From: a virus
Strand: one strand, 5' to 3'
Length of the DNA: 20,194 bases
IMG/VR virus record: IMGVR_UViG_3300013132_000339
Coordinates: 1 to 20,194 of that record
In this document: in pieces, positions 2,412-15,377 of the stretch
How positions within the stretch are numbered: the first letter of the stretch is position 1
How the letters are laid out: every line of letters starts with the position of its first letter
Translations under genes and position numbers: made by a program
Notes under the pieces: generated by a model
Told to the model about the DNA's origin: nothing
Database searches by the model: none
The model's input: only the letters and a program-made list of their open reading frames with translations

Positions 2412-2636
2412 ATGACCTCCCCCCACCACGACGAACTGTTCCTCGCCATCGGCCGCCTCGAGGGCAAGGTCGATTCGATCCTCGCCCAGCAGTCGCGCCA
2501 GACGGACGAGATCAAGGCGCACGACGCCCGCATCCGCTCGCTCGAGCACTCACGCGGCTACGTGCTCGGCTGGAGCGCCGCCATCGGGGCCGGCATGAGC
2601 CTGGTCGCCAACTACCTCATCAAGCACTTCGCGTAA
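2412..2636 (+). CDS. Small coiled-coil protein with C-terminal transmembrane helix (XhlA-like topology)
   Basis: A 74-residue protein. Residues 1-45 are charged and heptad-like (LFLAIGRLEGKVDSIL, DARIRSLEHSR), followed by one hydrophobic helix at about residues 49-70 (YVLGWSAAIGAGMSLVANYL). This topology resembles haemolysin XhlA/holin-accessory proteins, but homology is not proven. The ATG at 2412 lies 4 nt after the spike stop; in-frame codons continue upstream inside the spike gene, but this start begins the compact helical protein. Its place just behind the spike, in a block ending with two more membrane proteins, would suit a role in lysis or in tail-membrane contact. That role is inference. 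Confidence 0.75.
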   Translation: MTSPHHDELFLAIGRLEGKVDSILAQQSRQTDEIKAHDARIRSLEHSRGYVLGWSAAIGAGMSLVANYLIKHFA

Positions 2637-2644
2637 GGAAACCC

Positions 2645-3208
2645 ATGCCTACTGACATCGTCATCGCCACCGACAAGCCGGAGTACCGCACCACTGGTCT
2701 TGTGACAATTGTGAGTGCAGCTGCGTATGACGCCGCCAAGCCCACGGCGGTGATTCCGTCCACGACGGGACAGACATTCCTGATCCCGTCGAACCTCGGC
2801 GACAAGCCGAGCCTGCTGCGCCTGGTGCCGTTCTGCGGTTCATCGTCTGCCGCCACGAGCGGAAACTTCACGGCTGCCGGCGTGCGGGTGGTTGGCTGGA
2901 CCACATACAACCAGACGGACGGAACGCCGATCTATGTTCCGACCGTTCTTGCGGATCTGACCGTGACACTCGGATCGTCCGTTCCGACGCTGACGATCAA
3001 CACCGTGGCGCACTATTTCTTCAACACGGTGTCGGCGGGAGGTAGTGTTCCTACGGTGAACATCTATTCGCCTGGCACGGTTTCGGCGGCCAATGACAAC
3101 GCATGCTCTGCCGTGATCGACACGATTGGGCAGCAATACATCACGTTGCAGGTCAAGGGTACGAACGCAAACAGCCCGAAGATGGGCTGCTTCTACGCAT
3201 TCCTCTGA
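2645..3208 (+). CDS. Hypothetical virion-associated protein
   Basis: A protein of 187 residues without a recognised domain. It is rich in Thr, Ser, Val and Gly with alternating hydrophobic strands (GLVTIVSAAAYDAAKPTAVI, LTVTLGSSVPTLTINTVAHY), the composition expected of an all-beta phage structural or fibre-associated protein. There is no signal peptide or TM helix. A clear ribosome site (AAGGAA) sits 6 nt before the ATG at 2645. The gene lies between a coiled-coil membrane protein and a large lectin-like protein and is read in the same direction, so a role in the tail or capsid exterior is likely but is inferred only from context. Confidence 0.75.
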   Translation: MPTDIVIATDKPEYRTTGLVTIVSAAAYDAAKPTAVIPSTTGQTFLIPSNLGDKPSLLRLVPFCGSSSAATSGNFTAAGVRVVGWTTYNQTDGTPIYVPTVLADLTVTLGSSVPTLTINTVAHYFFNTVSAGGSVPTVNIYSPGTVSAANDNACSAVIDTIGQQYITLQVKGTNANSPKMGCFYAFL

Positions 3209-5777: not shown

Positions 5778-6278
5778 TCAGCGGATTCGCAGGCTTGTGC
5801 CGCGAGGCAGGAGCTCGCAGCCGGCGATGGTAGCGCCGTTCTCGAGCGCCTGACGGATCGCGTCCTTGTTGGCCGCCACGGTCACCGTGGTCAGTTCCTT
5901 CGGCAGGCTGGTGGCATCGCACGTGACCGACAGCGGCTGCTTCCCGCCGTTGCCTGCGACCGACAGCCGGAACCGCGCCGTGTCGATCTTGGTGCGCCCG
6001 GTCGCCTCCATCGCCTCCTTCAGGCGCGCCTTGAGGCGGTCGGCGAGCGCCTCGTCGGTCGCCGCCAGGTCGCGCATGCGCTGGGCCTCGACGCGGCGGG
6101 CGTCGGCCCGGGCGGCGAGGTGCTGGATGAGGGCGGCGTAGTCATCGGCCTTCTCGTCGAGGGCCGCGTCCAAGCCGGCCAGGTGCGCCTCGAGCGCCTG
6201 CTGCGCCTCGGCGTCACCACCGTCGAGGATGGCGTCCACGATGTCGTTGATCTCGTTCTGAATTGCGTACAGGCTCAT
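5778..6278 (-). CDS. Gp157-family phage protein
   Basis: A 166-residue protein matching the Siphovirus Gp157 family in length and layout: a short N-terminus MSLYAIQNEINDIVDAI, a long charged coiled coil (about residues 25-110, rich in A, E, R, K), and a beta-rich C-terminal third (TARFRLSVAGNGGKQPLSV) ending in AIRQALENGATIAGCELL-type sequence and a basic tail. Family members usually sit beside phage recombination genes. One was linked to phage resistance in Streptococcus, but the biochemical role is unknown. GGAGGA lies about 8 nt before the ATG at 6278. It is read after bet with a 21-nt gap, so the two probably form one transcript driven by the promoter at 7373-7400. Confidence 0.85.
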   Translation of the reverse strand: MSLYAIQNEINDIVDAILDGGDAEAQQALEAHLAGLDAALDEKADDYAALIQHLAARADARRVEAQRMRDLAATDEALADRLKARLKEAMEATGRTKIDTARFRLSVAGNGGKQPLSVTCDATSLPKELTTVTVAANKDAIRQALENGATIAGCELLPRGTSLRIR

Positions 6279-6299
6279 GGTGTGTTCCTCCGGGTAGGG

Positions 6300-7316
6300 T
6301 TAGAAGGGGAGATCGCTGCCGTCCGTGACGGGCGCGGGTTCGGGGGCGGGCGGCTGCTCCGAGCGCAGCACGCGCATGATGGTGAGCGCCTTGCCGACGC
6401 GGGCGACGTCCATCGTGAGGTGGCCGTTGAGCGACTCGTCGGCGAGGTCGGCGTACTCCTTGACGGTGGTGGCGATCCAGACGGCACCGTGCTCGCCCGT
6501 CGCCTCGATGGCGATGGCACGGCCCGGGCGGCGGAACACGCGGTGGATGCGGAACGTGCCCTCGTACTCGTCGGGGTAGGCGTCGGTCGGCCCCGCGACC
6601 GGGACGTCGTTCGGGCTGGGCTTGGCGGGCGCAGGCGCCTCCTGTGCCTTCCGCGGCTTGCGGGCGGGCTTCGGGGCGTCCGCGACGGCCGGCGCGTCCT
6701 GGGGCAACGTAGCGGCCTCCACGGGGGCCGGCAGGGCCGGGGCCGCGACGGGGGCTGCGGCGGGCGGGTTGTCCTGCTGCCCCATCTCCTCGGCGGTATA
6801 GAGCCCGCTCAACTCGGCCGGGAACGCCTTCCTCAACGCCAACGCCTCGGCGCACTTGGCGATCATCACGGACGGCATCTTGGGCCACATGCCCGAGAGG
6901 CTGCCGTCCTTCTTGCGCTGCGCGTACTCGCGGAACAGGGCGACGGCGGTGACCGCCTCCACGAACCCCTTGCGGTACACCCCGACGCGGGCGGCGGCGG
7001 GCGGCTCGTCGTGCAGCCATACGTCGGTCCACTGCCCGTCCGTGCCGCAGAACGCCACCGAGGTCTGACCAGCGTACTCGCCACTTCGCTGGGCAACCAG
7101 GCGGAACCCGTCGATGCTGACCTGCGTCTGCATCACCTCGCGGCCAGCGCGGCTGTCCCACCGCTTGACGGCGTAGATCTGGCGGGCGAACGGGTCAAGG
7201 CCCGTGCGGTCGCACACGCTGAAGAACAGCTCCATCTCGTCGCGGCTTGCGCCCGCGCACAGGGTGCGAGCGAGCAGGTCGCGCTTCTCATCGTCCAATC
7301 GTGCCAATGCAGTCAT
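6300..7316 (-). CDS. bet: Phage recombination protein Bet (single-strand annealing) with extra C-terminal domain and SSB-like tip
   Basis: Residues 1-182 are a Red-beta/Bet core: DRTGLDPFARQIYAVKRW (36-53), QVSIDGFRLVAQRSGEYAG (65-83), SVMIAKCAEALALRKAFP (149-166) and LSGLYTAEEMG. The core anneals complementary ssDNA, normally with a 5'-3' exonuclease, which is not seen in this window. The protein has 338 residues, whereas lambda Bet has 261. A Pro/Ala-rich linker (about 183-245) leads to a second compact region (246-318) with strand-helix-strand pattern (EGTFRIHRV, AIAIEATGE, AVWIATTVKEYADLAD, HLTMDVARVGKALTIMRVL), followed by a Pro-rich tail ending TDGSDLPF, like the acidic tip of bacterial SSB. 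The start has AGGAGA 7 nt upstream. The OB-fold reading of the added domain is inference. Confidence 0.9.
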   Translation of the reverse strand: MTALARLDDEKRDLLARTLCAGASRDEMELFFSVCDRTGLDPFARQIYAVKRWDSRAGREVMQTQVSIDGFRLVAQRSGEYAGQTSVAFCGTDGQWTDVWLHDEPPAAARVGVYRKGFVEAVTAVALFREYAQRKKDGSLSGMWPKMPSVMIAKCAEALALRKAFPAELSGLYTAEEMGQQDNPPAAAPVAAPALPAPVEAATLPQDAPAVADAPKPARKPRKAQEAPAPAKPSPNDVPVAGPTDAYPDEYEGTFRIHRVFRRPGRAIAIEATGEHGAVWIATTVKEYADLADESLNGHLTMDVARVGKALTIMRVLRSEQPPAPEPAPVTDGSDLPF

Positions 7317-7372: not shown

Positions 7373-7400
7373 AGTATACGCCCCGGTATGGCGTTGTCAA
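7373..7400 (-). promoter_or_regulatory. Sigma70-type promoter for bet and the Gp157 gene
   Basis: On the minus strand TTGACA (7400-7395) is followed by a 16-bp spacer and TATACT (7378-7373), 11 of 12 bases matching consensus. It lies at and just after the rusA stop codon and predicts a start near 7366, giving a roughly 50-nt leader with a Shine-Dalgarno before bet. Confidence 0.85.
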
Positions 7401-7807
7401 GCCCAGACTTTGACGCGGGTTTCGGCCGTGTCCCCCCACTCCTTGCAGGCCGACAGGATCGCCACCTGCGAGTCATCGGCGTACACCACCCCGGTCATAG
7501 CGTCCAAAGCAGCTCTGGCAAGCTTGTCCAAATCGGGGCGTCCGGGCGCACGCGGCGCGCTCGAGCGCAGGGCGCCCGTGCTGGTGTAGTGCGACTTCGG
7601 GCGCGGGAACAGGAACAGCAGTTCGACCGCCACGACCCCCGTGGCCGGCGGCTCGGTCCACGCCTGACGCGCCGCCAGCGCGAACACGGCCCGGTACGGC
7701 CTCACCCGGGCGGATGACTCGAGCAACACCGTGCGCCCGTTCCGCAGGCGCACCGCCCGCTTGCTTCCTTGGGGGGCGGCGAGTCCTGGCACCGTGAACT
7801 CAATCAT
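7397..7807 (-). CDS. rusA: RusA-family Holliday-junction endonuclease
   Basis: A 136-residue protein, the normal RusA length. It has the family N-terminus (MIEFTVPGLAAPQGSKRAV, i.e. the P-x-P/PQ-x-K type start), a central V-E-L-L-F strand, and the catalytic block RPDLDKLARAALDAM plus GVVYADDSQV at about residues 91-115, where Asp92, Asp94 and Asp111 correspond to the metal-binding acids. It resolves branched DNA made during replication or recombination. The start at 7807 has AGGAGG 7 nt upstream; a longer in-frame reading to 7924 is only low-complexity overlap with the neighbour. It overlaps the upstream gene by 8 nt and precedes bet, forming a recombination set. Confidence 0.88.
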   Translation of the reverse strand: MIEFTVPGLAAPQGSKRAVRLRNGRTVLLESSARVRPYRAVFALAARQAWTEPPATGVVAVELLFLFPRPKSHYTSTGALRSSAPRAPGRPDLDKLARAALDAMTGVVYADDSQVAILSACKEWGDTAETRVKVWA

Positions 7808-9059: not shown

Positions 9060-9255
9060 TTCGATCCTCCCACGCCTGGATGCGCTCCCCGATCCACTCC
9101 ATGCAGTTCACGGCCATCGAGTTCCCGAGCGCCCGGTAGCGTGGCCCGTCCGGGCACTCGTCGGCGCCCTTCTTGCGCCACGGTATGAGCGTCCAGTCAT
9201 CGGGGAAACCCTGGAGTCTCTCGCACTCACGCGGCGTCAGGCGGCGCACGGTCAT
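9049..9255 (-). CDS. C-terminal part of C5-cytosine methyltransferase (motifs IX-X) as a separate ORF
   Basis: A 68-residue product containing only the end of a C5-cytosine DNA methyltransferase: RRLTPRECERLQGFPDDW is motif IX and YRALGNSMAVNCMEWIGERI is motif X. Motifs I-VIII are in the adjacent ORF in another frame. The ATG at 9255 overlaps that ORF's stop by 4 nt (ATGA); a GTG four codons earlier (9267) is an alternative. The same frame stays open a further 20 or so codons upstream (…TAQLQRCQTPAVAQA-MTVRR), and its protein sequence looks like a normal methyltransferase join, so an indel in one ancestral gene is likely. It could still complement the large part in trans. Confidence 0.75.
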   Translation of the reverse strand: MTVRRLTPRECERLQGFPDDWTLIPWRKKGADECPDGPRYRALGNSMAVNCMEWIGERIQAWEDRNAS

Positions 9256-10571
9256 TGCTTGCGCCACCGCCGGAGTCTGGCACCTCTGAAGCTGCGCGGT
9301 GTCCTTGGATCAAGCCCTCGGGAGTCGCCGCCGGATTGCCAATCAAACGCCATCACCGTCGGCCCGCTCGCGTTGACGCTTGATCCCGGCGTCCCCATCG
9401 TCGCCGCGACGTCGCCCGTGATCGCGCCGTTGTAGCAGTCGGTGCCGACCACGGCCATTGACGTGTTCCGTGCGCTGGCGTTGCCCGTCGTGCCGACCGT
9501 GAACCCGACCGGGCTGGTGAAGCATTCACCTACTTGGTTCTGATGGAACGCCACCGCATGCACATCGTTCCCACTCGGCTTGCACAGCGTCGGGCTTACG
9601 CTCCCGTCACCGACGTTCGCGTTGCCCTTGCAGGCTTGCATATCGATGGTGCCGACAACCGCCGCGTGCGCCGCGTTGTCCCTCGCAAGCGTGTGGCACG
9701 GGTCGCCGGGTGCGCGGTTCTGCCGATTGACCGGGGCGGTGATCTGGAAGAGGTCGTAGGGGACGGGCTGCGGGATGTACGCCCCGTGACCATCCAGTTC
9801 CGTGTGCGAACGCAGGCCGCGGTTGCCGAGGGTTGAGGCGACGGGCTGCGGAACCAGCCGCCCGGTGTACGCATCTTGCCCGCTGTACGCGCCCGCTTGC
9901 GTGTCCGCGCACAACGCACCTACGGTGTCGTGGATGCCTGCTCGAGCGCCTGCTTCAGCATCGGGGGCAACGCCTTGCCCCGGCGCTCGGCGCGGCGCAG
10001 AATCCCGGCACACGCTTTCGCGCTCAAAGAGAACCGCGGCGGCAGCGGCCCCGTCTCCAAGACATCCAACAACGAACACACGTCGCCGGCGCTGCGGGAC
10101 GGCGCGTGGATGCCGTTGTGTTCGCACCCATTGAGCGTCCAGCACCCGGTAGGCCCACCCATACCCCAGTTCCCCCAACGCCCCGAGGAAGGAACCAAAG
10201 TCCCGTCCTCTTCCGCTTGACAGGACACCGGGCACGTTTTCCCAGACAACCCATCGAGGCCGAAGACGTTGAGCGATCTCAAGGTAGGTAAGCATGAGTC
10301 CTCCTCGCGGGTCGTGCAGTCCCTTGCGGAGTCCTGCGACGGAGAAGGACTGGCAAGGGGTTCCGCCCACGAGAAGGTCAACTGATCCGGGTTCGAGGGG
10401 CCATTCGGCATGGCGGGTCATGTCTCCGTAGTTCGGGACGTTGGGGAAGCGGTGCTTCAGCACCGCCGCCGGGAAGGGTTCGATCTCGCTGAAACCGACA
10501 GGCTCCCAGCCGAGGTGATGCCACGCAACGCTCGCGGCTTCAATGCCGCTGCATACGCTCAAGTACCTCAC
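9252..10571 (-). CDS. C5-cytosine DNA methyltransferase, large part (motifs I-VIII and target-recognition region)
   Basis: A 439-residue product. Motif I LSVCSGIEAASVAW (4-17, AdoMet binding), motif IV GGTPCQSFS with catalytic Cys73, motif VI ENVPG (111-115) and motif VIII QRRRRVF (160-166) are intact. A 230-residue variable region follows, made of short Gly/Thr-rich units (VASTLGNRG, CHTLARDNAAHAAVVG, VSPTLCKPSGNDVHAVAF, VAATMGTPGSSV), as in the target-recognition regions of phage Dcm-type enzymes. The last 26 codons have switched frame, and motifs IX-X lie in the next ORF. Methylation would guard phage DNA from host restriction. No restriction nuclease is nearby, so this is an orphan enzyme. 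Its start overlaps the upstream stop by 4 nt (ATGA). Confidence 0.85.
   Translation of the reverse strand: MRYLSVCSGIEAASVAWHHLGWEPVGFSEIEPFPAAVLKHRFPNVPNYGDMTRHAEWPLEPGSVDLLVGGTPCQSFSVAGLRKGLHDPRGGLMLTYLEIAQRLRPRWVVWENVPGVLSSGRGRDFGSFLGALGELGYGWAYRVLDAQWVRTQRHPRAVPQRRRRVFVVGCLGDGAAAAAVLFERESVCRDSAPRRAPGQGVAPDAEAGARAGIHDTVGALCADTQAGAYSGQDAYTGRLVPQPVASTLGNRGLRSHTELDGHGAYIPQPVPYDLFQITAPVNRQNRAPGDPCHTLARDNAAHAAVVGTIDMQACKGNANVGDGSVSPTLCKPSGNDVHAVAFHQNQVGECFTSPVGFTVGTTGNASARNTSMAVVGTDCYNGAITGDVAATMGTPGSSVNASGPTVMAFDWQSGGDSRGLDPRTPRSFRGARLRRWRKQ
9920..10411 (-). CDS. Overprinted ORF nested in the methyltransferase gene
   Basis: A 163-residue ORF on the same strand as the methyltransferase but in another frame, spanning its residues about 54-217, including motifs IV, VI and VIII. 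The protein looks ordinary rather than random: conserved-looking blocks are TFSWAEPLASPSPSQDSARD, then WGNWGMGGPTGCWTLNGCE, then SLLDVLETGPLPPRFSLS and AKACAGILRRAERRGKALPP. I recall very similar sequences (SLSDxLETGxxPxRFxLSxKACAGILRRAExRGKxLP) from hypothetical proteins of many phages that overlap methyltransferases. GGAG lies about 12 nt before the ATG, a weak start. Function is unknown. The call rests on motif memory and must be tested against random overlap. Confidence 0.55.
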   Translation of the reverse strand: MPNGPSNPDQLTFSWAEPLASPSPSQDSARDCTTREEDSCLPTLRSLNVFGLDGLSGKTCPVSCQAEEDGTLVPSSGRWGNWGMGGPTGCWTLNGCEHNGIHAPSRSAGDVCSLLDVLETGPLPPRFSLSAKACAGILRRAERRGKALPPMLKQALEQASTTP

Positions 10572-11769: not shown

Positions 11770-12723
11770 GTGAAATGCGGGTTGCACTTGGTAGGGTGCG
11801 GCCGGATGGGTGTGAGCATCAAGCAGCACCACCCCGGATCGTTCACGGTCGAGATGACCGAGGAGCGCGATGGCAACATCCCGAGCAGCGCCTGGGAGCA
11901 GTACTTCCTGCTGGTGTCCGATGCACACATCGACAACGCGCACTCGGATAGGTCAATGTTCGACAGACACATGCGCCAGTGCCGCGAGCGGGGCGGGAAG
12001 TGGTTGTCGAACGGAGACTTCCTGTGCCTGATGCAGGGCAAGTACGACCTGCGGTCGGACACCTCGGCCTGCCGGCCGGAGCACCAGCAGGGTCGCTACC
12101 TTGACGCGGTCATCAACACGACGGCCGACTATGTCGCGCCCCATGCCGACATGGCTCTCTTGTTTGCGCCCGGAAATCATGAGCAGGCCATTCGCAAGCG
12201 GCACGAGACGGACATGAACGAGCGGCTGGTCGAGGCGTTGCGCCATCGCAGGCCGGCCGATTGTCAGGCGTATGCCGGGAAGTACGCGAACTGGGTGCGG
12301 TTCCTGGTGCGGAACAAGTCGCGCCGGCAGCTCGTCGGCGGCAGCGTCGTGATGTACATGCACCACGGCTACGGCGGCGGCGGTCCCGTGACACGCGGCA
12401 CGATCCAGACCTCCCGCATGGCCGTGTACCTCCCGGACGCCGACATCATTTGGACGGGCCATACCCACGACGAATGGATCATGCCGATCCAGCGGGCGCG
12501 GCTGTCGCCGCACGGGCGACCCTACCTTGACCGTGTCACGCACGTCCGGTCGCCGGGGTACAAGGACGAGTTCAGCGAGCAGGCCGGGTGGGCCGTGGAG
12601 AAGGGGATGCCGCCGAAGCCCAAGGGCGCGCTTTGGCTACGATTCTACATGGACAAGTTCCGCAACGAGTACAACGGCGAATCGACCCGCGTGCTGCGGT
12701 ACGAGGTTCGCGAAGCACAGTAA
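11770..12723 (+). CDS. Calcineurin-like metallophosphoesterase
   Basis: A 317-residue protein with the full metallophosphoesterase signature in order: LLVSDAHIDN (Asp51, His53), LSNGDFLC (Gly82-Asp83), APGNHEQ (Asn136-His137), MHHGYGGG (His198-His199) and TGHTHDEW (His231, His233). These bind two metal ions and hydrolyse phosphodiesters or phosphomonoesters. The phage substrate is unknown (nucleotide, nucleic acid end or protein). Phages often carry such enzymes in replication or late-early operons. Residues 1-40 lie before the fold and are not typical. The GTG start at 11770 is chosen because a -10 hexamer lies 7 nt upstream and there is no good Shine-Dalgarno; Met13 (11806) is the alternative. 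Confidence 0.87.
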   Translation: MKCGLHLVGCGRMGVSIKQHHPGSFTVEMTEERDGNIPSSAWEQYFLLVSDAHIDNAHSDRSMFDRHMRQCRERGGKWLSNGDFLCLMQGKYDLRSDTSACRPEHQQGRYLDAVINTTADYVAPHADMALLFAPGNHEQAIRKRHETDMNERLVEALRHRRPADCQAYAGKYANWVRFLVRNKSRRQLVGGSVVMYMHHGYGGGGPVTRGTIQTSRMAVYLPDADIIWTGHTHDEWIMPIQRARLSPHGRPYLDRVTHVRSPGYKDEFSEQAGWAVEKGMPPKPKGALWLRFYMDKFRNEYNGESTRVLRYEVREAQ

Positions 12724-13554: not shown

Positions 13555-14124
13555 CTATTCCTCCCAGTACATTCGCTCGCCCCGGCGGTAGTGCTTGAGG
13601 TCATCGTCGCGCTGCAAGTGCGTGAAGTGCTTGTCCATGAAGCGGCAGAAGTTGTTGGGGTACAGGAGGTAGCGCCCGTCCCACCGCTCAACAAGGTTGA
13701 GCGGCTTGTGCTCCTGGGGGTAGCGGCTGAACCCGTCCGACCAGTCGAGCACGATGCCTGTGTGTCGGCCCGTGAACCCCGGCCCCTTGCCGCTGCCCAT
13801 GACGAGGAGCCCCTCGAGGTAGTGCATATGCACGGCGGATATGCATTCACCCATCGCGCCCCACGGCTGGAGGTCGCCGCCGCACGGCTCGAACGCCGTA
13901 GCGTTGGCCTTGAATGCGCTTGGGTCGCTTCCCAGTTGGTGCAGCGGGATGCCGCACCATTCGGCTCCTGTCTCGAGCAGGACGTGCGCAGAGACGATTT
14001 GGCCGGGTCGGGCGTACACGGCGTGCCAGATGCCTCGCGTGGTCCCTGCGGGCATCGTAGGCCCGAGGGCGCGATTGTCTACGTGGACGTACAGGTGGTA
14101 CGGAAGATTCGCATGGCGCGTCAT
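13555..14124 (-). CDS. Hypothetical protein, unknown family
   Basis: A 189-residue protein with no recognised family. The N-terminal part reads as alternating strands (YHLYVHVDNRALGPTMPAG, GIWHAVYARPGQIVSAHVLL) and is rich in His and aromatic residues. A central Gly/His region (CGIPLHQLGSDPSAFKANAT; ISAVHMHYLEGLLVMGSGK) and an aromatic C-terminus (WDGRYLLYPNNFCRFMDKHF) follow. Three Cys and many His could bind metal. There is no signal peptide or TM helix. The ATG at 14124 is preceded not by a Shine-Dalgarno but by a -10-like TATACG 7 nt away. It follows the PP-loop enzyme by 171 nt and has its own candidate promoter. Confidence 0.72.
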   Translation of the reverse strand: MTRHANLPYHLYVHVDNRALGPTMPAGTTRGIWHAVYARPGQIVSAHVLLETGAEWCGIPLHQLGSDPSAFKANATAFEPCGGDLQPWGAMGECISAVHMHYLEGLLVMGSGKGPGFTGRHTGIVLDWSDGFSRYPQEHKPLNLVERWDGRYLLYPNNFCRFMDKHFTHLQRDDDLKHYRRGERMYWEE

Positions 14125-14131
14125 AGGTGTT

Positions 14132-14140
14132 CGTATACTA
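14132..14140 (-). promoter_or_regulatory. Candidate leaderless promoter for the 13555-14124 gene
   Basis: On the minus strand TATACG (14137-14132) ends 7 nt before the ATG at 14124; TAGTAT (14140-14135) ends 10 nt before it. Either would place the transcript start at or within 3 nt of the start codon. No Shine-Dalgarno and no convincing -35 are seen. The rest of the 171-bp gap to 14295 holds no recognisable gene or terminator. Confidence 0.45.
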
Positions 14141-14295
14141 CGGGTGCGGAGACGCAGGGCTGCGGCTGTCGGAGCCAAACACCTGCATGGGGCGGGCCTG
14201 AAGGCCGTGAGGTACGCCGCCCGCCAGCGCCACCATTGGGGTAGAAACAACCTCCCGCCAGGGGCAGGCACGACGAAGCTCGTGCGCTGCTCCAC

Positions 14296-15090
14296 CTACT
14301 CGGTGCAGTCGCAGGGGATGGTCGTGTCATCAAGGTGCTGGAACAGCTCGCCTTGCACGGTGATCTGCGTCAGGAGTTGCCGATACGTAGGGCGATCCTT
14401 GCGGAAGCGGGCGTTGATGGCGCTTTCCTGTTCAGCCCACCACGCTGCCCGATGTGGTTCGGCCCGGATCACGCGCTCTATGCGGGCGCTGCCCTTCAGG
14501 AAACACAGGTCACAGTTGCCGAAAGCCGGATCGTCGTTGGGCAGGGCGAGGTCAAATGGCTGTCGCTTCCACCACGCCACGATGGTTTCGCGGTCAACGC
14601 CGGCGTCGGCCAAAGGCATGGCAATGTCCCGCGTAGGGTCAGAGCGCAGCCGTGCGACCCGGTGCGGTTCGTCAGCCCGCAGCCCTAGCACGGAGGTGAA
14701 ATCGCCGTACCCGTGGTTGGACATGAATTTCTGCATGGGGATGACCTTGAGGTTGCTGGTGCAGAACCTGGCGATTGGGTTGGGCAAATAGTTGCGCTTG
14801 GCGATCATGGCAGCGAACGGCTCCCCGTTCCGGCTGGCCGTGTCGGGCCGAACGAGGTTGTATCCAAACGGCGACCATTCGATCCAAGTCACGACGCACC
14901 ATTCACGCCCGATGCGTTCCACGAACTCGTAGGTGGCATCGTGTTCCTTGCCCGTGTTGGCGAACAGGACATGGCCTCCCTTTGGCATGGTCCCGCCCCA
15001 TGCATCAAGGACGTGGCGCAGCAGATATCCGCTTGTCCTGCCGCCGCTGAACGACACGTAAAACGGCGGCTCAATGCGATACGGGTTCAT
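14296..15090 (-). CDS. PAPS-reductase/DndC-like PP-loop enzyme
   Basis: A 264-residue N-type ATP-pyrophosphatase fold protein. The PP-loop is VSFSGGRTSGYLL (12-24, SGGRTS in place of SGGKDS), followed by HVLFANTGKEHDATYEFVER with the T-G typical of the CysH family, then LGLRADEPHR (135-144). Cysteines at 110 (CTSNLK), 193/196 (CDLCFLKG) and 260/262 (CDC) could hold an Fe-S cluster, as in DndC/IscS-dependent sulfur enzymes. PAPS reductases reduce sulfate donors, and DndC-type enzymes adenylate DNA for phosphorothioation. Phage members are common but mostly uncharacterised. The ATG at 15090 is chosen because a TATACT lies 7 nt upstream; the longer reading to 15324 crosses the iterons and is rejected. 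Confidence 0.85.
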   Translation of the reverse strand: MNPYRIEPPFYVSFSGGRTSGYLLRHVLDAWGGTMPKGGHVLFANTGKEHDATYEFVERIGREWCVVTWIEWSPFGYNLVRPDTASRNGEPFAAMIAKRNYLPNPIARFCTSNLKVIPMQKFMSNHGYGDFTSVLGLRADEPHRVARLRSDPTRDIAMPLADAGVDRETIVAWWKRQPFDLALPNDDPAFGNCDLCFLKGSARIERVIRAEPHRAAWWAEQESAINARFRKDRPTYRQLLTQITVQGELFQHLDDTTIPCDCTE

Positions 15091-15097
15091 ACTGGCG

Positions 15098-15103
15098 AGT
15101 ATA
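15098..15103 (-). promoter_or_regulatory. Leaderless-type -10 element of the PP-loop gene
   Basis: TATACT on the minus strand, with 7 nt between it and the ATG at 15090, predicts a transcript start at or next to the A of the start codon. No Shine-Dalgarno lies between. The -10 and its flank (GCGTATACT) are identical to the bet promoter's. The -35 is weak (ATGACC at 19 bp). Confidence 0.6.
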
Positions 15104-15163
15104 CGCTTGTGACGAGTTTGCTGGTCATGGCGCGAAGTGACTACAGAACTGCACAAGTGTGTG

Positions 15164-15222
15164 TCGGACACAGCCGGAAACGGCCGGACACTGCCGGACA
15201 CTGCCGGACACTGCCGTTTCGG
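15164..15222. repeat. Iteron-like array of 10-bp direct repeats
   Basis: GCCGGACACT occurs three times head to tail (15183-15192, 15193-15202, 15203-15212), preceded by degenerate copies (TCGGACACA at about 15164, GCCGGAAACG at 15173-15182) and followed by GCCGTTTCGG. The outer pair GCCGGAAACG and GCCGTTTCGG is partly inverted, so the array is framed by mirror-image arms. The period of about 10 bp is one helical turn and is not a multiple of 3, which argues against coding repeats. Iterons of this spacing usually bind a replication initiator or repressor on one DNA face. The binding protein is unknown. Confidence 0.65.
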
Positions 15223-15232
15223 GTTGCGCTCG

Positions 15233-15377
15233 TTAAACGAAACACGCCGCGGACCGTGAGGTCTACGCGGCGCGCTTCCGGGGGCAAGAGAAGGTGCCGT
15301 CCATGGCACCAGGTGTCCGGTCACGCCGCGCTCGGCGGCACATGCCGCGTTGCCTCGTCAGAGAGGCGCGCCAGACA
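15233..15377 (-). ncRNA. Candidate small RNA or mRNA leader B with terminator
   Basis: From the promoter at 15384-15412 a transcript would start near 15377. It would pass the alternative hairpins 15335-15348 (GCGGC/GCCGC) and 15324-15337 (CGCCG/CGGCG), which share bases and cannot form together, then GGTGCC-loop-GGCACC (15310-15293). It would end at a strong stem 15272-15245 (CGCCGCG, bulge, GACC with a 4-nt loop) followed by the U-rich TGTTTCGTTTAA. A 13-codon ORF starts in the 15293-15310 loop and stops inside the terminator stem, as in attenuators. That it is transcribed is inference. Confidence 0.4.

Follow-up and report, generated by a model that had tools for sequence, protein, structure and literature searches.

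The stretch of DNA analysed here, referred to as the window, is a linear viral record of 20,194 bases and represents a fragment. Its minus strand carries an operon in which a RusA-like Holliday junction resolvase (7397..7807; PF05866, 1.4e-16; PHROG 140) is followed by a single-strand annealing protein (annealase) of the RecT/Redβ family (6300..7316; PF03837) and then by a gene of the Gp157 / Mu Gam-like end-protection family (5778..6278; PF05565, 4.8e-35; PHROG 253, 2.4e-32). This order is that of a typical recombination cassette. The start codon of the resolvase is likely the one at MIEFTV, judging from the RusA ORF of a relative on a sister contig. The annealase ORF begins with an ATG at 7316, its stop codon ends at 6300 and the encoded protein of 338 aa terminates in ...APVTDGSDLPF. 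A likely Shine-Dalgarno sequence of the Gp157 gene, GGAGGAA (6285..6291, minus strand), is located after the annealase stop codon.

The Bet protein that the original prediction had placed at 6300-7316 was confirmed with correct coordinates, on the minus strand. Residues 13-185 (6762..7280, minus strand) match the Pfam RecT family PF03837 with an E-value of 4e-33 and 115 bits, for a curated cut-off of 24, and the annealase also matches the RecT-like PHROG 2780 (5e-65). In the same way, structure searches with the core retrieved the N-terminal domain of Redβ (7ujl; Z 10.9, 3.4 Å over 140 residues) and RecT of phage A118 (7ub2; Z 8.1). Judged by its core sequence, the annealase belongs to the RecT family. 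The core is followed by a linker rich in Pro, Ala and Lys (residues 186-243; 6588..6761, minus strand), then by a C-terminal OB-fold domain (residues 244-320; 6357..6587, minus strand) as predicted by AlphaFold2, and finally by an SSB-like tip, DLPF, within the terminal TDGSDLPF (6303..6314, minus strand).

Several other genes of the window were noted. A calcineurin-like phosphoesterase (11770-12723, plus strand) resembles a DNA repair exonuclease of phages (PHROG 7339, 7e-12); it is kept in sister contigs and possibly belongs to the same recombination set. A C-5 cytosine methyltransferase is found at 9252-10571 and 9920-10411 on the minus strand; its 439-aa frame has a Pfam family match over the first 173 residues only, so its C-terminal half is possibly a replacement or is read out of frame. 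Finally, 13555-15324 on the minus strand holds a PAPS-reductase-like gene and, beside it, one that weakly matches a PHROG with the label ferredoxin.

The predicted C-terminal OB-fold domain

When scanned by itself, the C-terminal part of the annealase gave no Pfam match with E up to 1 and no PHROG match. An AlphaFold2 domain model was made from residues 244-338 with 17 family members, and a full-length model was made separately. The domain model contains strands at 7-18, 25-31 and 34-40, a helix at 43-51 and strands at 56-64 and 67-77, followed by a disordered tail. The predicted order β1-β2-β3-α-β4-β5 is the canonical one of an OB barrel, with the helix between strands 3 and 4. Residues 250-320 reached a pLDDT of 92-96 both in the domain alone and in the full-length model. 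In the latter, the core was confident over residues 9-182, the tip was disordered and pLDDT fell below 50 at 181-239, so that the Pro/Ala linker noted at the outset is predicted to be disordered. The original prediction had also described residues 246-318 as a compact region that could be an OB fold with strand-helix-strand order; compactness and fold were borne out by the models, and the order is more exactly three strands, a helix and two strands. Structure prediction and fold search thus returned an OB barrel rather than disorder or another fold.

Comparison of the barrel with the PDB gave Z-scores of 10-11 for SilF, 9-10 for the N-terminal OB domain of RecO and about 8-9 for SSBs, PriB and RPA, so that the nearest solved DNA-repair relatives are the RecO domain and the SSBs. 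Since the best Foldseek E-values were merely near 0.01 and a Z of about 8 is common, these matches support the fold class and no specific family. Residues 244-320 are almost certainly an OB fold according to the models. By sequence, the barrel stands outside the PF00436 SSB family: hhalign against phage PF00436 SSBs gave a probability of 10%. Searching solved structures by sequence, with a profile of the domain, gave no credible match, and the annealase has no Pfam match to PF10991 (T7 Gp2.5 / Enc34-type SSB).

The net charge of the OB domain is -2 in the window protein and -2.9 on average over 75 residues, and this slight acidity is not favourable to strong binding of ssDNA. Proteins, too, are among the ligands of OB folds. 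Five residues of the domain are invariant (W280, Y288, F255, R263 and R306) and could form a putative ssDNA face. From the predicted fold, binding of ssDNA by the OB domain appears reasonably probable.

A tail shared by three annealing cores

Profile scans with the OB tail returned more than 100 loci each. The tail, made of OB domain and tip, was found on three core types: RecT as in the window, a second RecT-like core without any Pfam match that falls in the RecT-like PHROGs 561 and 4171 (6.5e-9), and ERF (PF04404, E 1.8e-21). The phages that carry it are related freshwater phages, while the annealing parts that are swapped look unrelated. At the protein level, the tail attached to a RecT core is 100% identical to that attached to the second core in the phage pairs L102/L105, L097/L098 and L112/L113. 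At the DNA level, blastn of L098 against L097 showed 95.9% identity as far as the start codon and no similarity in the core; similarity restarts inside the linker and extends over the tail and the gene after it (87.5%). Other near-identical phage pairs display the same pattern. Matching flanks around a dissimilar core indicate that recombination replaced the annealing core and left the tail in place. The OB-tip unit is a self-contained module whose attached cores have been exchanged, a point that was absent from the original prediction. In the three pairs above, the exchange between start codon and linker is a case of recombination acting on a recombinase gene.

A tblastn search with the OB domain in 50,697 phage records from isolates gave no match, and the module is consequently known solely from environmental contigs. 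Nor did the tail profile detect any relative among 84,980 cellular genomes. The annealase core has 73 cellular relatives, none of which bears the OB tail as judged by their C-terminal ends, and the tails of RecT relatives are highly varied.

The terminal TDGSDLPF was present as first described, and it was found to be conserved: the proteins of close relatives end in DLPF, ELPF, DVPF or DIPF. Among 82 distinct related tails, 69 end in PF, compared with none of the 543 other gene-like ORFs (>=100 aa) of the same phage loci. In 64 of the 82, the PF is preceded by a hydrophobic residue and an acidic one stands at or next to the position before it; the commonest tips are DLPF, EVPF, DVPF and ELPF. 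Most relatives thus keep [DE][LIV]PF, encoded by different synonymous codons. Proline is specified by all of CCC, CCG, CCT and CCA, the acidic position by GAT, GAC, GAA or GAG, and the hydrophobic one by 11 codons over L, V, I and M. Such synonymous variety points to selection on the peptide. The stretch that joins the barrel to the tip, for its part, is freely variable, both in length and in sequence. The DLPF end has the form of PF00436 SSB tips ([DE][IVL]PF), as seen in the SSBs of phages S-H1, S-LBS1 and ctQRb9. On these sequence grounds, the tip is very probably selected as a protein docking motif, and its conservation suggests that the whole tail is maintained by selection.

The full -PF tip is missing in 13 of the 82 distinct tails, five of which retain the terminal F alone and eight of which lack it. 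These tails end in EEVF/EEIF, THV, NDE, VVK, VKS or VVR. Where eroded tips were examined, the following gene starts directly beside the stop codon or overlaps with it, and no gain of an SSB was found among those records with an eroded tip that were searched. The odd tail of L020 is accounted for by frameshifts, the other frame giving ADTPF.

Related motifs were observed in other annealases. A RecT relative without the OB tail, from an Acidobacteria MAG (JAKALV010000346.1, ORF containing 2489-3079), ends in EDDDLPF; its C-terminal region is of another kind, and the SSB-like tip on this annealase appears to be independent. Alphaproteobacterial RecT relatives, including those of Pelagibacterium and Devosia (L253, L254) as well as L022, end with doubled acidic-FP motifs, for instance ADDDFPFPEDDDFPGDR, which recall SSB tips though they fall short of the very end. 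In the Synechococcus phage S-H1 type (L028-L080), RecT ends in EDPFADD or EEDPFDD and the SSBs end in EEAVF/EEPVF, a tip variant without the Pro-Phe pair.

SSB genes and the OB tail across phages

No PF00436 SSB gene was detected in the 20.2-kb window, as had been claimed, but the window is a linear fragment in which such an absence proves little, and the relatives provide the test. By six-frame search, PF00436 was found in none of 79 records with the OB tail, window included. These records reach up to 41 kb and many measure 35-41 kb, the size around which the group's largest contigs are gathered. A separate SSB elsewhere in the genome, which would have counted against the original prediction, was thus not seen in this material; together with the predicted OB fold and the conserved tip, this means that none of the three conditions given there as refuting it was borne out. 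Of 36 records in which the RecT relative bears another tail, 30 gave a PF00436 SSB in the same search. The Fisher test for 30/36 versus 0/79 gives p 5e-22, a descriptive value that overstates independence. SSB genes and the OB tail are mutually exclusive in the material examined, in a contrast that is partly phylogenetic and drawn from fragments. Searches for PF10991 and DUF669 in 26 records gave no match, and no positive-control signal either.

Isolates and complete genomes illustrate this distribution. In Synechococcus phages S-H1 and S-LBS1 the annealase lacks the OB tail and an SSB is encoded nearby, ending in DEDVPF and DDEEVPF, respectively, and Microcystis phage Mae-JY09 likewise combines an SSB with an annealase that lacks the tail. 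Manatee Spring phage ctQRb9, whose TerL is 70% identical to that of the window and which is its terminase sister, has a different RecT without the tail together with an SSB ending in DDIPF. Phage ctEw122 has neither tail nor SSB. On the other side, the ERF-type record G093 has the RusA-annealase-Gp157 cassette in common with the window but no detectable TerL similarity, so that the absence of SSB holds in two OB-tail lineages with no detectable terminase similarity. The terminase kinship of ctQRb9 and the shared cassette of G093 indicate that the contrast is not simply one of clade versus clade, though it is still not phylogenetically controlled.

A proposed working and its place among known systems

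Annealase and SSB genes commonly form one module in phages, with erf located next to ssb in nearly 80% of the cases in Firmicutes phages (PMC8093625). Known annealases interact with SSB tips: the nine final residues of SSB are the binding site of Redβ (PMC7496540), and the NDYPPF tip of the HK620 SSB recruits Sak4 onto coated ssDNA, its removal causing a 10-fold loss of recombineering (PMC5928155). We consider it fairly probable that an annealase fused to an OB domain and an SSB-type tip carries what phages usually supply as a neighbouring SSB. The core would anneal complementary strands, as expected from its family. The OB domain, given its fold, probably handles ssDNA or holds the annealase there by means of the flexible linker. 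By conservation and SSB precedent, the D/E-hydrophobic-Pro-Phe tip may dock on host or phage readers of SSB tips and bring them to the annealing site; possible readers, in well-studied bacteria, are RecO, PriA, exonuclease I, DnaG, RecG and the chi subunit of Pol III. Selection would retain the tail as the annealing core ahead of it is swapped by recombination. That the tail functionally replaces a separate phage SSB is slightly favoured. More tentatively, and with slightly less than an even chance, some phages may have given up a separate SSB for a chimeric annealase-SSB chain, in which interchangeable cores sit on a fixed OB-tip module that serves as an ssDNA interaction hub and inverts the usual relation where the annealase reads the SSB tip.

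Other explanations concern what each part of the tail binds. The OB domain might be a protein-interaction module, for example for the Gp157/Gam-like partner, an exonuclease or RecR, and bind no DNA, in which case the tip only would be SSB-like. The net acidic barrel is consistent with this, as are the closeness to the OB domain of RecO, a protein that acts in complex with RecR (entries 2v1c and 4jcv), and the RusA-annealase-Gp157 order kept across phages with different terminases. Nevertheless, the five invariant residues could make an ssDNA face, and OB folds alongside annealing or SSB functions mostly bind nucleic acid, which leaves a purely protein-binding domain somewhat unlikely. The tip might also act on its own annealase: by mimicking the host SSB tip, it would fill the tip pocket or OB groove of its own or a neighbouring subunit and regulate assembly or autoinhibit, recruiting nobody. 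Full-length Redβ does bind the SSB tip peptide at about 10 µM, mainly via its C-terminal domain (PMC7496540), and the tails of SSB and T4 gp32 can fold back onto their own DNA site (PMC5892887; PMC5928155). Yet the predicted model has no helical C-terminal domain such as Redβ uses to read the tip, and a core-specific pocket is improbable for a tail common to three cores, though an OB pocket would move with the tail. Such self-action is unlikely.

The tail could also be an ordinary lineage-specific extension without special function, the missing SSB being a coincidence of lineage and the host SSB being used. Phages can indeed lack SSB, as ctEw122 does in the absence of the tail, and the tails of RecT relatives are very diverse. 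Retention of the tail through core exchanges, tip conservation far over background and the lack of SSB in two lineages unrelated by terminase all speak against this, and we hold it to be quite improbable. The acidic-PF end was finally considered as a by-product of nucleotide signals of the downstream gene, namely a Shine-Dalgarno sequence and a start overlap. In the phages with an ERF core, the EEV of EEVPF is written GAG GAG GTT, which makes a perfect Shine-Dalgarno sequence ahead of an overlapping TAATG start, and several tips are eroded exactly at the stop/start overlap. In the window, RecT and second-core types, on the contrary, the Shine-Dalgarno sequence is found past the stop codon and none lies inside the tip codons, so that the tip of the window type is no by-product of it. 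Moreover, the Pro-Phe codons are outside any ribosome signal and vary synonymously. As a Shine-Dalgarno artefact the tip was ruled out for the window type; in the ERF types the two overlap, yet the signal is insufficient to explain the motif. Overall, the chance that nucleotide signals account for the acidic-PF end is very small.

Read as a docking module, the tail has practical interest. The annealases used as genome-engineering tools are effective chiefly in hosts with an SSB tip that they recognise (PMC10711431). A natural annealase with an SSB-like tip and an OB domain in cis suggests a route by which phages might escape or hijack the SSB-tip interaction, and it offers a portable tail naturally fitted to three different cores. 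With it, one can directly test which is recruited by an SSB-type tip, the annealase or the partners of the annealase.

The protein resembles RecT/Redβ annealases such as λ Redβ and A118 RecT (PF03837) in core family, fold and recombination gene neighbourhood. The C-terminal domain of Redβ reads the SSB tip (PMC7496540), whereas here a C-terminal OB domain displays a tip of that kind. Sak4 with the HK620 SSB is alike in that annealing is coupled to an SSB tip shown to matter (PMC5928155); there the tip acts in trans, on the SSB that recruits the annealase, and here it stands in cis on the annealase. In Firmicutes phages, one C-terminal HTH domain is likewise shuffled between the RecT, Erf and Sak4 families (PMC8093625), but that domain is Redβ-CTD-like and not an OB domain with an SSB-like tip.

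Bacterial SSB (PF00436) shares the OB fold and the D/E-hydrophobic-Pro-Phe tip with the tail, without sequence kinship of the OB domain. T7 Gp2.5, the nearest functional analogue, combines in one chain an OB fold, the ability to anneal and an acidic tail with Phe as its last residue. The difference is that its OB fold itself anneals, whereas here a RecT-type core would do so and the OB domain comes in addition. The gene neighbourhood of Gp2.5 (and Enc34-type SSB, PF10991) lacks ssb (PMC8093625). RecO, whose N-terminal OB domain is the best DNA-repair fold match to the barrel (Z 9-10), also anneals strands (PMC5928155). RecO binds the SSB tip and displays none; sequence identity with the barrel is about 10% with no family match, and the relation is one of fold similarity only.

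In the open-access literature, no report was found of an annealase with an OB domain and an SSB tip, which does not prove that none exists. The closest arrangement is that of the phage ssap-ssb modules (erf-ssb, sak3-ssb, sak4-ssb and recT near ssb; PMC8093625), which gather annealase, OB-fold and SSB-tip functions at one locus beside Gam/Gp157-type genes. Those modules consist of two genes, usually with a PF00436 SSB, whereas here a single polypeptide is found and PF00436 is absent from the 79 records. The fused annealase with OB domain and tip is a variant within this known kind of module and not a new kind of system.
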